In this document: one piece after another, positions 27,265 through 31,576 of the stretch
Layout of the letters: each line of letters opens with the position of its first letter
Numbering within the stretch: position 1 is the first letter of the stretch
NCBI GenBank assembly: GCA_946183925.1
Contig: CAMHDS010000019.1
Coordinates: forward strand, 1 to 35,394
DNA from: an uncultured Fibrobacter sp.
Lineage (GTDB): Bacteria > Fibrobacterota > Fibrobacteria > Fibrobacterales > Fibrobacteraceae
Direction of reading: 5' to 3'
DNA: 35,394 nt
The notes under the pieces: model-generated
The model's input: only the letters and a program-made list of their open reading frames with translations
Databases searched by the model: none
What the model was told of the DNA's origin: nothing
Program-made: the position numbers and the translations under genes

Positions 27265-27348
27265 GTGGAATGCTAGATGTGGAATGTGGAATGCATAATT
27301 CCACACCTCACATTACACATTGCGGCGTAGCCGCCCACATTCCACATT
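27265..27348. repeat. Heptamer array G (GTGGAAT / CCACATT)
   Basis: Twelve units in unbroken 7-bp phase (84 bp) begin with GTGGAAT-like units and end with CCACATT-like units, their inverse. A GCGGCGTAGCCGC palindrome fills exactly two units in the middle. The array overlaps the first bases of the glnN stop codon. Confidence 0.85.
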
Positions 27349-29464
27349 AGTAAATGAACAGCATTTCCCTGTACTTGGGCAAGGGCCAGCAGTCGTCGGG
27401 CACGATTTTTTCCAGGGCGTCCACCACGCCGCGGAGTTCCGCCATGGCGTCGAGAATATCCTCGTGGTCCTTCTCCAGGCAGGCCTCCATCTTGGCAATG
27501 GCGGCCATCAGCTTCGAAGAACCTTCGCCCAGAGCCTTGGCGTAGCTGTCCAAGCCAGGGAATCCCTGGTTCAGGGCCATTTCGTTTGTCTTGAGGGCCT
27601 TGGAGTAAGAATCCACCACCTTGGGCAAAATCACGTTCTTCGCCAGGTCACGGGCGATTTCCCCTTCGATATGGATACGCTTGTGGAAATCCTCCACGTT
27701 CACTTCGTAGCGGGATTCCATCTCGCGACGGTTCATCACGCCGTACTTCTCGAACAGGGCCACGTTCTCGTCTTTCACCAGGGCCTTCATGGCTTCCATG
27801 GAGGTCTTGATGTTGGGGAGTCCTCGACGTTCCGCTTCGGCAATCCATTCGTCGGTATAGCCGTTGCCGTTGAAGATTACGCGCTTGTGTTCCTTCACGA
27901 TTTTCTGGAGAATCTTCTGCAGCCCCGTGTGGAAATTCTTCTCGTCCAGTTTTTCCAGCTGTTCCGCAATCATGTCAAAAGCTTCGGCCACGATGGTGTT
28001 CAGTACCACGTTAGGTTCGGAACAGCTCTGGCTAGAGCCAGGAGCACGGAACTCGAACTTGTTTCCCGTAAAGGCGAAGGGACTCGTGCGGTTACGGTCG
28101 GTAGCGTCCCGAGGGAGCGGCGGCAAGGCGTCGGCGCCAATCCGCATGGCACCCGCCTGCTTGCTGGACTTGGGCACGCCCTGTTCCAGCTGGTCGATTA
28201 CGTCCATCAGCTGGTCACCAAGGTAGATAGACATAATCGCCGGAGGCGCCTCGTTGGCCCCCAGACGATGGTCGTTGCCCGCTCCCGCCACCGTCATGCG
28301 GAGTAGGTCAGCGTGGGTATCCACCGCATAAATCACGGCGCAGAGGGCCGTCAAGAAAACCGCATTCTGGTGAGGGTCCTTGCCAGGGTTCAGCAGGTTT
28401 CCGTGACCGTAAGTAATGCTCCAGTTGTTGTGCTTGCCCGAACCGTTCACGCCGGCAAAGGGCTTCTCGTGGAGCAGGCAAACCAGCCCGTGCCTGTCCG
28501 CCACCTGACGGAGCACTTCCATAATCTGCATGTTGTGGTCGCAGGCCAGGTTCACCTCTTCAAAGATGGGAGCCAGTTCGAACTGGGCAGGGGCCACCTC
28601 GTTGTGGCGGGTCTTGGCCGGAATGCCCAGTTTCCACAGTTCCATTTCCACATCGTTCATAAAGTTCAAGATGCGGGTAGGGATGCTACCGAAGTAGTGG
28701 TCGTCCATCTGCTGGTGCTTGGCAGGTGTTGCCCCGAAAATGGTGCGCCCCGCCTGGTACAGGTCCGGCCGTTGCAGGTAAAAGCGCTTGTCGATCAAGA
28801 AATATTCCTGCTCGGCGCCAAGAGTCACGGTGGTCTTCTTGGGACTCGCCTTAAAACAGGTCATGAGCCTACGGGTAGACTTGGAAAGGGCCTGCAAGCT
28901 GCGGAGCAGGGGCGTCTTCTTGTCCAGGGCCTCGCCGGTATAGCTGCAAAACGCCGTCGGAATACAAAGGGTTGCGCCATTGCCGTGACGCTTGATAAAA
29001 GCGGGGCTGGTGGGGTCCCAGGCGGTGTAGCCCCGGGCCTCGAAGGTGGAGCGCAGCCCCCCGCTGGGGAAGCTGGAAGCATCCGGCTCACCCACAATCA
29101 GGTTCTTGCCGCTGAACACCATGATGGGCTTGCCCTCTTCCAGTTCCAAGAAGGAATCGTGCTTTTCGGCGGTAGAGCCGGTAAGGGGCTGGAACCAGTG
29201 GGTAAAGTGGGTGGCGCCACGGTCCAGGGCCCAGCGCTTCATGGCATGGGCCACTTCGCTTGCGATGTTGGCGTCCAGGGGAGCGCCCTCGTCGATGGTG
29301 GCCAAAAGCTTTTCGCAGGTTTCCTTGGAAAGGTAGTTCCGCATGGCCCGGGCGTTGAACACGTCTTCGCCGAAATAGTCGATGTTTGCCGGCGTGGCGG
29401 GCTTGATGGGGGTGGCGGGTGCCGAAGCGATATCGTTGACGGTATTCTTGCGGGTACTGATCAT
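27347..29464 (-). CDS. glnN: Glutamine synthetase type III
   Basis: The 705-residue enzyme makes glutamine from glutamate, ammonia and ATP. Its length and motifs are those of the large type III (GlnN) family found in Bacteroidetes, Fibrobacter and others: GLRSTFEARGYTAWDPTSPAFI, TLGAEQEYFLIDKRF, PAKTRHNEVAPAQFEL, CLLHEKPFAGVNGSGKHNNWS, and RIGADALPPLPRDATDRNRTSPFAFTGNKFEFR. The C-terminal 150 residues form the type-specific helical tail. AGGA six bases upstream supports the ATG at 29464. Upstream is a sigma54-type promoter and two TTACA-N4-TGTAA palindromes, and the divergent neighbour is a sigma54 activator, so nitrogen control is likely. The stop touches array G. Confidence 0.97.
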   Translation of the reverse strand: MISTRKNTVNDIASAPATPIKPATPANIDYFGEDVFNARAMRNYLSKETCEKLLATIDEGAPLDANIASEVAHAMKRWALDRGATHFTHWFQPLTGSTAEKHDSFLELEEGKPIMVFSGKNLIVGEPDASSFPSGGLRSTFEARGYTAWDPTSPAFIKRHGNGATLCIPTAFCSYTGEALDKKTPLLRSLQALSKSTRRLMTCFKASPKKTTVTLGAEQEYFLIDKRFYLQRPDLYQAGRTIFGATPAKHQQMDDHYFGSIPTRILNFMNDVEMELWKLGIPAKTRHNEVAPAQFELAPIFEEVNLACDHNMQIMEVLRQVADRHGLVCLLHEKPFAGVNGSGKHNNWSITYGHGNLLNPGKDPHQNAVFLTALCAVIYAVDTHADLLRMTVAGAGNDHRLGANEAPPAIMSIYLGDQLMDVIDQLEQGVPKSSKQAGAMRIGADALPPLPRDATDRNRTSPFAFTGNKFEFRAPGSSQSCSEPNVVLNTIVAEAFDMIAEQLEKLDEKNFHTGLQKILQKIVKEHKRVIFNGNGYTDEWIAEAERRGLPNIKTSMEAMKALVKDENVALFEKYGVMNRREMESRYEVNVEDFHKRIHIEGEIARDLAKNVILPKVVDSYSKALKTNEMALNQGFPGLDSYAKALGEGSSKLMAAIAKMEACLEKDHEDILDAMAELRGVVDALEKIVPDDCWPLPKYREMLFIY

Positions 29465-29527
29465 AGTGCGTCCTTTTGTTTCGGGGCGAAAAATAGAAAG
29501 GAGAACGGGAGCTTTGCAGTGAAAAAA

Positions 29528-29544
29528 TGGCAAATTTCAGGCCA
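29528..29544 (-). promoter_or_regulatory. Sigma54 (-24/-12) promoter of glnN
   Basis: On the minus strand TGGCCTGAAATTTGCCA matches the sigma54 consensus TGGCAC-N5-TTGC. The -24 GG and -12 GC are exactly 10 nt apart. Transcription would start about 50 nt before the glnN ATG. Confidence 0.75.
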
Positions 29545-29549
29545 TTTTC

Positions 29550-29594
29550 TTTACATTTTTGTAAAATTCATCACTATTATTACATATTTGTAAA
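29550..29594. promoter_or_regulatory. Two TTACA-N4-TGTAA palindromes (candidate activator sites)
   Basis: TTTACATTTTTGTAAA (29550-29565) and ATTACATATTTGTAAA (29579-29594) share arms, 4-nt spacing and a following ATTCA. Their centres are 29 bp apart. They lie just upstream of the sigma54 promoter and between the divergent genes. Confidence 0.65.
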
Positions 29595-29624: not shown

Positions 29625-29630
29625 TATATT
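29625..29630 (+). promoter_or_regulatory. -10 element 6 bp before ATG (leaderless candidate)
   Basis: TATATT ends 6 nt before the activator ATG at 29637. No ribosome-binding site is present, so the mRNA would begin at the start codon. Confidence 0.5.
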
Positions 29631-29636
29631 TAGGCC

Positions 29637-30782
29637 ATGGAATTCAACGCCCTGCAAACAGAGGCCCTGCGCCAAATCGACGACGCCCTGCACCATATCC
29701 GTGCCAAGGACCGCCTGAGGCAAAGGTTGCAAGAAATCATCGGCAACAATTTCGCCGCCGTCGAAACGGGGTACCAGAAGAAATTCCAGGAACTTCGCGA
29801 CCTCATGGGCGGCACTCCCAGCGAACTCATCGGGAACACCCGCGCCATGCAAGAGGTAGAGCGGCAGGTGCGACAAATCGCAAGTAGCGACGCCGTGGTG
29901 CTCATCCGCGGGGCGGCGGGCACCGGCAAGGAACACACTGCAAGGACTTTACACCGCATGTCCGAAAGGGCGAGCGGGCCCTTTGTCATCTTGAACTGCG
30001 ATTCCCTGAACGCAGGCGAAGGATTCAACTCCCTGGAAAGTGAACTGTTCGGCTACGAAAGGGGCGCCTTCACTGGCGCCACCGCGCGCCACCTAGGCAA
30101 GGCGGAGCAGGCAAACGGCGGCACCCTTTTTATAGACGAGGTCGGCTCCCTGCCCCTTGCCGCACAGACCAAGCTTTTGCAGTTCCTGCAAGACCGGCGT
30201 TTCAGCCGCCTGGGGAGCAACATCTTCCAAAACGCAAACATCCGGATTATCGCCAGCACCGGCAAGGACCTGGAAACCCTGATGCAGCAGGGGCTTTTCC
30301 GCGAAGACCTCTACTACCGCCTGAACATTTTCCAGATCAAGCTGCCGGAACTGTCCCAACGCAAAACGGACATTTTGCTTTTGGCAGACCATTTCATCGC
30401 CAAGATGAACCTGAAATACGGCAAGAAAATCCAGAGGCTCAGCACTCCCGCCATCGACATGCTCATGAGCTACCACTGGCCGGGCAACGTGCGGGAACTG
30501 GAAAACTGCATCGAACATGCCTGCCTCGCCACCACAGACGTAAGCATCAACGCCTACGACCTTCCGCCTACATTGCAGACCGACGTTACCTCCGGCACGT
30601 CGCTCATTCCAGAAGGTCCGGCGTCGCTCTCCACGCTACTCCGCTCCTACGAAAAAGAAATCCTGATGGAAGCCCTGCGCAAAAACAACGGGAACCTGAG
30701 CGCCGCCGGCCGCGACCTGCAGGTAAGCCCCCGCATGATGCATTACAAGGTGAACAAGTACGGCATCGAGGTAAAGGAATGA
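29637..30782 (+). CDS. Sigma54-dependent transcriptional activator (NtrC/NifA family)
   Basis: The 381-residue protein has a complete sigma54-activating AAA+ domain: Walker A GAAGTGKE (92-99), sigma54-contact loop GAFTGA (143-148), and Walker B GGTLFIDEVG (161-170). The arginine-finger region FREDLYYRLNIF and YHWPGNVRELENC follow. A Fis-type helix-turn-helix ends the protein (EILMEALRKNNGNLSAAGRDL and onward). The N-terminus is only about 65 residues, predicted helical, with no receiver domain and no full GAF domain. Control is therefore probably by protein contact or expression level, not phosphorylation. Its divergent placement from glnN and the sigma54 promoter there suggest glnN as a target. 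The stop overlaps the next start (ATGA). Confidence 0.94.
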   Translation: MEFNALQTEALRQIDDALHHIRAKDRLRQRLQEIIGNNFAAVETGYQKKFQELRDLMGGTPSELIGNTRAMQEVERQVRQIASSDAVVLIRGAAGTGKEHTARTLHRMSERASGPFVILNCDSLNAGEGFNSLESELFGYERGAFTGATARHLGKAEQANGGTLFIDEVGSLPLAAQTKLLQFLQDRRFSRLGSNIFQNANIRIIASTGKDLETLMQQGLFREDLYYRLNIFQIKLPELSQRKTDILLLADHFIAKMNLKYGKKIQRLSTPAIDMLMSYHWPGNVRELENCIEHACLATTDVSINAYDLPPTLQTDVTSGTSLIPEGPASLSTLLRSYEKEILMEALRKNNGNLSAAGRDLQVSPRMMHYKVNKYGIEVKE

Positions 30783-31576
30783 ACAACGCTCGCGAAGTCC
30801 TGTCCAACCAAGACGGCCCTTTCAAGGATTTGGAAAAGCTGGTCCGCAAGTACGCCGCCACCGAATACAAGAGGCCCATCGCCGACCACACCCGGAATGC
30901 TTTCGCCGATGCGGAACGTTTCATTGCAGACTTTTACATCAAAGGGCGTGCCCAGTCCAAAGGAACATCCCGCTTGCCACTGCCAGTCATTCTGGATTCA
31001 GGTTGCGGCACCGGCGAAAGCACGCAACATCTGGCAAGGCGCTTTCCGGACTATCCCGTCATCGGCATCGACAAGTCCGCCTTACGCCTGGACAAGGCGG
31101 GCAGAGCCTTCGACACCGCTCAGTCCCGCGGCACCGAGGCACAAACCAACATCGCACGACAAAATGTGCCTAAAAACATTTTCTACGTCCGGGCGGAACT
31201 CATCGACTTTTGGCGGCTCGCCTTGGACAAGGTAACAAGCGGGCAATGGGTCATTCCCTATCACGCCCTCTACTACCCCAACCCCTGGCCCAAGCAGAGC
31301 GAAGCGGGCAGGCGTTTCCACCTGCACCCCATATTCCCCACCCTGTTGCAGCTAGCACAAGAAACGGAGTTGCGGACCAACTGGGAAATCTACGCACGTG
31401 AATTTGCACAGGCGGCGGGTATAGTCAAGGAGATCCCCGGTCAAGCCGGGGATGACAATGTAGTAGTGAAATCCGTTAGCTGCGAGGCTTTTTCGCCGAG
31501 GCAGCCCATCACCGCCTTCGAACGCAAATACAAGAATGCCCGCCAGCAGTTGTGGCGGGTCTTGGTCCATCGATAA
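30779..31576 (+). CDS. TrmB-like SAM-dependent methyltransferase
   Basis: The 265-residue protein has a class I methyltransferase fold: ILDSGCGTGESTQHLARRFP (71-90) binds SAM and VIGIDKSALRLDKA is strand 2. The motif YYPNPWPKQSEAGRRFHLHPIFPTLL (165-190) matches the catalytic loop of tRNA (guanine46-N7)-methyltransferases. It is longer than typical TrmB at the N-terminus (about 65 residues before the SAM site) and its closing region differs, so it may be a divergent TrmB or a related RNA methyltransferase. Residues 218-226 (EIPGQAGDD region) are encoded by a palindromic repeat. Translation is coupled to the activator gene by a 4-nt overlap. The stop is 9 bp from the convergent gene. Confidence 0.8.
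   Translation: MNNAREVLSNQDGPFKDLEKLVRKYAATEYKRPIADHTRNAFADAERFIADFYIKGRAQSKGTSRLPLPVILDSGCGTGESTQHLARRFPDYPVIGIDKSALRLDKAGRAFDTAQSRGTEAQTNIARQNVPKNIFYVRAELIDFWRLALDKVTSGQWVIPYHALYYPNPWPKQSEAGRRFHLHPIFPTLLQLAQETELRTNWEIYAREFAQAAGIVKEIPGQAGDDNVVVKSVSCEAFSPRQPITAFERKYKNARQQLWRVLVHR
31431..31457. repeat. Palindromic repeat inside the trmB-like gene
   Basis: ATCCCCGG (31433-31440) pairs perfectly with CCGGGGAT (31446-31453) around a TCAAG loop and is followed by GAC. Stem length and loop match the element at 24859-24879. Confidence 0.8.

Follow-up and report, generated by a model that had tools for sequence, protein, structure and literature searches.

A divergent glutamine synthetase-bEBP pair of Fibrobacter that has probably exchanged sigma54 for a housekeeping promoter

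The stretch of DNA analyzed here (the window) is a 35,394-nucleotide contig of a Fibrobacter MAG of 2.76 Mb and 81% completeness. Fibrobacter is among the major cellulose-degrading bacteria of the rumen, an environment in which ammonia is a main nitrogen source. The window carries a gene for a type III glutamine synthetase, glnN-1, and, divergent from it, the gene for a short bEBP. The glnN-1 product contains the Pfam domains GSIII_N, Gln-synt_C, and Gln-synt_C-ter, and full-length copies are 84 to 100% identical across the genus. All 30 bEBP loci retrieved for the genus show the divergent glnN-bEBP arrangement, as do 2 more reached via glnN. A first-pass annotation had read the locus as a local sigma54 circuit, and the parts that it named (two palindromes, a TGGC-N7-TTGC motif, glnN, and a divergent activator with GAFTGA and a Fis-type HTH) were all found in the window; rpoN is likewise present in the genome (Sigma54_DBD, E=1e-52). 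The features of the locus are as follows.

27347 to 29464, minus strand: glnN-1, type III glutamine synthetase, 705 aa, the copy that accompanies the short bEBP
29488 to 29495, minus strand: putative housekeeping-type -10/-7 box TATTTTTC (conserved CTAnnTTT) of glnN-1
29512 to 29518, minus strand: -35-like TGCAAAG, weakly conserved, ~17 bp upstream of the box
29529 to 29544, minus strand: sigma54-like motif TGGCCTGAAATTTGCC, private to the window strain and probably not functional
29551 to 29564, no strand: proximal palindrome TTACA-N4-TGTAA, TTACATTTTTGTAA, exact, kept across the genus
29580 to 29593, no strand: distal palindrome TTACA-N4-TGTAA, TTACATATTTGTAA, exact, kept across the genus
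29625 to 29632, plus strand: likely -7 box TATATTTA of the bEBP gene, from the sequence and its relatives
29637 to 30782, plus strand: short bEBP, 381 aa, AAA+ with GAFTGA, lid, and Fis-type HTH, without a GAF domain

The short bEBP comprises Sigma54_activat, AAA lid, and HTH_8 domains, and residues 1 to 63 gave no Pfam match to an N-terminal receiver or GAF domain. NCBIfam nifA was among its best scores, far below the cut-off of that model. An ORF resembling a methyltransferase (30779 to 31576; weak match to Methyltransf_4/TrmB) overlaps the bEBP stop codon (ATGA) and is likely cotranscribed with it. The genome also holds a further bEBP fragment (G000:C100:6-806, L136), in which a degenerate loop, GALVGV, replaces GAFTGA.

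The two palindromes are 29 bp apart from start to start. When the window was shuffled and one mismatch was allowed, two matches were reached in 4 of 100 shuffles. A single other exact N4 site exists in the genome, within a pectate-lyase-like ORF, and was dropped as a regulatory site because it lies inside a coding region. With the strict pattern, one N4 pair per genome was found in 30 of 41 Fibrobacter genomes and none with a reversed control pattern; the pair thus occurs far more often than chance would allow. Among the remaining 11 genomes, the pair is present with mismatches in G009, G024, G025, G033, G036, and G063, the copy of G020 lies near a contig end, and the short bEBP was not seen in G011, G015, G018, and G032. 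Neither a glnN of the glnN-1 type nor a short-bEBP match was found in G011 and G015, and G032 has a glnN copy of the glnN-1 branch (82% identity) with neither the N4 pair nor the bEBP beside it. All 43 GTDB loci with glnN in reach carry the pair, with at most one mismatch per site and a distance of 28 to 29 bp. The N4 pair and the short bEBP go together with glnN-1 throughout the genus, the pair being lost where the bEBP is lost. Of the three findings that would have refuted the first-pass annotation, two, an absent rpoN and unconserved palindromes, did not occur.

The pair could instead be the operator of an unrelated regulator, for example one of the CRP/FNR type, with the bEBP a bystander, given that a 5-N4-5 palindrome resembles FNR-type sites and that its upstream location is appropriate for class I activation. 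We regard this as quite unlikely, as the pair and the short bEBP are present and absent together and the regulon of a sister bEBP, described below, uses these half-sites too, likewise arranged in pairs.

The sigma54-like motif TGGCCTGAAATTTGCC has the GG-N10-GC spacing that is correct for a -24/-12 promoter, and its score, obtained with consensus weights set by hand, corresponds to a p of 0.007 relative to the 185-bp region shuffled at the mononucleotide level. It deviates from TGGCACR-N4-TTGCW, the form frequent in the genus, and only 6 bp separate its -24 element from the proximal palindrome. Across 57 distinct glnN/bEBP promoter regions, TGGC-N7-TTGC occurs at this place in the window strain alone; L157 has it at a different place, overlapping the CTAnnTTT box, and none of the 43 GTDB loci has it between the N4 pair and the ATG. 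In strains with identical or nearly identical GlnN, CGGC, AGGC, or CAGC stands in place of TGGC, so that the first T has become C or A and one strain is without the GG. We therefore consider the motif private to the window strain. GG-N10-GC cores are present in 16 of the 57 linkers; those outside the window's closest relatives are either at other places or without the TGGC/TTGC context, and the cores were rejected as promoters. As a caution, a lone and correctly spaced -24/-12 match, even beside a bEBP gene, can be a coincidence confined to one strain.

Sites of the TGGCACR-N4-TTGCW form number ~14 to 19 each in G003, G005, G014, G025, and G033, against 0 to 4 control matches. Each of the 16 TTACA-N5-TGTAA pairs found, with sites 30 to 31 bp apart, has a near-perfect sigma54 promoter downstream, at 52 to 100 bp for the nearest one, and pairs with such promoters precede gltB, the second glnN (glnN-2), dapF, and a PurF-like gene. 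In G014, P-II, AmtB, the PurF-like glutamine amidotransferase, GltB, and the second glnN are encoded close to a 509-aa GAF-type bEBP, with an aminotransferase after it, and in sister genomes dapF and carA have the same type of site. At L121, L122, L123, L124, L125, and L139, N5 sites or pairs with sigma54 promoters were observed before glnK, gltB, glnN-2, the PurF-like gene, carA, dapF, and a pyrG-like gene, a candidate nitrogen regulon with several glutamine-using enzymes among its members. No account of a Fibrobacter nitrogen regulon was found in full-text literature searches.

Both glnN copies are present in most Fibrobacter genomes; in that of the window, glnN-2 is a fragment at a contig end. 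A sigma54 promoter precedes glnN-2 in 16 of 18 genomes, which served as the positive control for the glnN-1 test. Judged by these sites, the canonical sigma54 nitrogen circuit of Fibrobacter controls glnN-2, the other copy than glnN-1. In other families (L043 and L049), glnN lies directly downstream of a bEBP and has a -24/-12 motif, and sigma54 control of glnN therefore looks ancestral.

Could glnN-1 of the window strain nevertheless be transcribed from the -24/-12 promoter at 29529 to 29544, with the divergent bEBP activating from the palindromes? The exact spacing and p value of the motif, the rpoN gene, and the intact GAFTGA of the window's bEBP speak for such a model. We consider it very unlikely, since the motif is found at this place in 1 of 57 regions and is altered in near-identical strains, since its distance of 6 bp from the palindrome compares with 52 to 100 bp at genuine pairs, and since a conserved alternative promoter exists. 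What remains of the annotated circuit is a palindrome pair that belongs to glnN and its bEBP; the -24/-12 promoter proposed to drive glnN-1 is not supported. Sigma54 control of this gene is also disfavored by the presence of the canonical circuit on the other glnN copy and by the loss of the GAFTGA threonine, a sigma54-contact residue, in several lineages of the short bEBP.

Leu, Ile, or Ala has taken the place of this threonine (GAFLGA, GAFIGA, or GAFAGA) in three or more lineages of the short type. A paralogue of the short bEBP carries a GAF domain, which the short type has lost, and the short and GAF-type bEBPs form sister groups (99/90). GAFTGA is intact in 20 of 20 GAF-type bEBPs, and the mean identity of the AAA+ domain is 73% for the short type versus 92% for the GAF type. 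By these sequence comparisons, the short bEBP is the faster evolving of the two and its AAA+ domain the less constrained. The window's own bEBP retains the arginine-finger region, Walker A and B, and GAFTGA. This counts against an exit from sigma54, as these elements would be unneeded if the contact had been lost everywhere. Sister strains of the window (G016, G082, and G084) have GAF-type bEBPs of 93% identity; this protein was not found in the incomplete assembly of the window.

The HTHs of the two types have an SPRMM core in common, which fits the half-site TTACA common to the N4 and N5 pairs, and the GAF-type bEBP could also bind the N4 pair. That the GAF-type nitrogen bEBP, or both bEBPs, act on this pair and tie glnN-1 to the main nitrogen regulon would agree with the common half-site, the equal layout of the pairs, and the related HTHs. 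The spacer is, however, consistently N4 here versus N5 in the regulon, the pair distances are 28 to 29 versus 30 to 31 bp, and genomes that have the GAF-type but not the short bEBP, such as G032, lack the N4 pair. This reading is unlikely, and we take the short bEBP to be the probable binder of the N4 pair.

In the 57 distinct regions, 54 to 56 bp separate the proximal palindrome from a CTAnnTTT box. These regions were collected within a 52- to 57-bp search range and partly by requiring a box near the expected place, so that the tight spacing is partly due to selection. An earlier list made without box selection gave the same 54 to 56 bp, barring three rows where an earlier box was picked. The distance from the box to the palindrome is fixed and that to the ATG varies from ~6 to 215 nt. 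The box resembles the Bacteroidota -7 element TAnnTTTG. The -35-like element upstream of it is weak, which counts against a housekeeping promoter. Within 240 kb of G033, CTA..TTT was found before unrelated genes in 17 of 82 regions, whereas shuffled sequence gave 2.8 and the reverse strand 6; TATAAT showed no enrichment upstream of genes in these 82 regions. The linker between the pair and the box contains A or A/T tracts at 11-bp steps (positions 3, 13 to 15, and 24 to 26), a phasing reminiscent of UP elements or of a phased bend.

On the other side of the pair, TATATTTA lies 31 bp beyond the distal palindrome, and in several relatives the corresponding distance is 21 or 31 bp. It ends 4 nt before the bEBP ATG, and the bEBP mRNA may therefore be leaderless. 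In G033:C2 (L301-L312), TAnnTTT boxes are most frequent 11 to 20 nt before start codons, a peak that suggests that many Fibrobacter transcripts have very short leaders or none. One further copy of the element TTCTCTCCTAG was observed in G036, in an apparently unrelated coding context.

Because the sigma54 promoter is absent from nearly all copies, glnN-1 is probably run from an ordinary promoter. We think it probable that glnN-1 and its short bEBP arose by duplication of a glnN-activator pair, left sigma54, and now use a housekeeping promoter. In this model, the duplicated glnN-bEBP pair would have acquired N4 in place of N5 sites, lost its -24/-12 promoter, and adopted the housekeeping one; the ancestral layout (GAF-type bEBP, N5 pairs, and consensus -24/-12) would survive at glnN-2 and at other nitrogen genes. 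In dimeric or higher oligomeric form, the short bEBP would bind the TTACA-N4-TGTAA pair and control glnN-1 from a sigmaA-type promoter whose CTAnnTTT box stands 54 to 56 bp downstream of the pair. Transcription of glnN-1 presumably starts just past this box, and the palindrome centers are predicted to lie near -74 and -103 relative to that start. The sign of control is somewhat more likely to be activation than repression. The short bEBP probably autoregulates as well, since the pair lies just upstream of, or overlaps, its own promoter.

Systems with some of these properties are known. In Caulobacter and Rhodobacter, bEBPs without GAFTGA act at sigma70 promoters, and Caulobacter crescentus NtrC is required for glnA expression (PMC10274813). 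The NtrC proteins of C. crescentus and Rhodobacter capsulatus are nitrogen-control bEBPs that work at housekeeping promoters without sigma54 contact, as proposed here. They have the GAFTGA loop deleted and the receiver domain kept, whereas the Fibrobacter proteins show single threonine substitutions in at least three lineages, have neither a receiver nor a GAF domain, and have a divergently encoded type III enzyme as their probable target. NifA-type bEBPs with a GAF domain have an AAA+ and HTH_8 architecture like that of the short bEBP, but the latter is without the GAF domain and has no nif genes beside it in the window. Enterobacterial NtrC/sigma54 control of glnA likewise uses paired palindromic sites upstream of a glutamine synthetase gene; glnN-1 differs in having no conserved sigma54 promoter, a regulator without a sensor domain, another half-site, and another enzyme class. 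The cyanobacterial glnN controlled by NtcA is a type III glutamine synthetase gene with a housekeeping promoter and an upstream activator, as we propose for glnN-1, although NtcA is a CRP-family activator with GTA-N8-TAC sites and not a bEBP.

The general idea of a bEBP working off sigma54 therefore has precedent, while the specific case and the regulon appear undescribed in the literature searched. The comparison yields a concrete candidate regulon, made up of the GAF-type bEBP, the TTACA-N5-TGTAA pair, and sigma54. Its sister circuit, with nearly the same DNA code and sigma54 seemingly dropped, offers a test of how a bEBP changes its polymerase partner, and the lineages that lost the sigma54-contact residue in parallel can serve as natural replicates.

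Finally, a conserved 5' leader was observed at the transcript start of the short bEBP (L008-L023, L153-L169, and L286-L291; e.g., G068:C4:35751-35813). It consists of UCUCUCCUAGA and, after it, a GC-rich hairpin that has a variable loop and shows compensatory changes. A covariance model detected this leader in 23 of 61 Fibrobacter genomes, once in each, adjoining the short bEBP in the cases compared, and none in the window's clade; no Rfam family matched. A more elaborate reading, in which a bEBP family midway in its exit from sigma54, with ATPase and GAFTGA still intact in some species and the contact residue lost in parallel in others, serves a housekeeping glnN promoter and, having no sensor domain, receives its signal via this structured leader RNA on its own mRNA, seems unlikely to us. 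In G025, a match to the Cobalamin riboswitch (RF00174) lies downstream of the short bEBP leader (L278:2889-3011).
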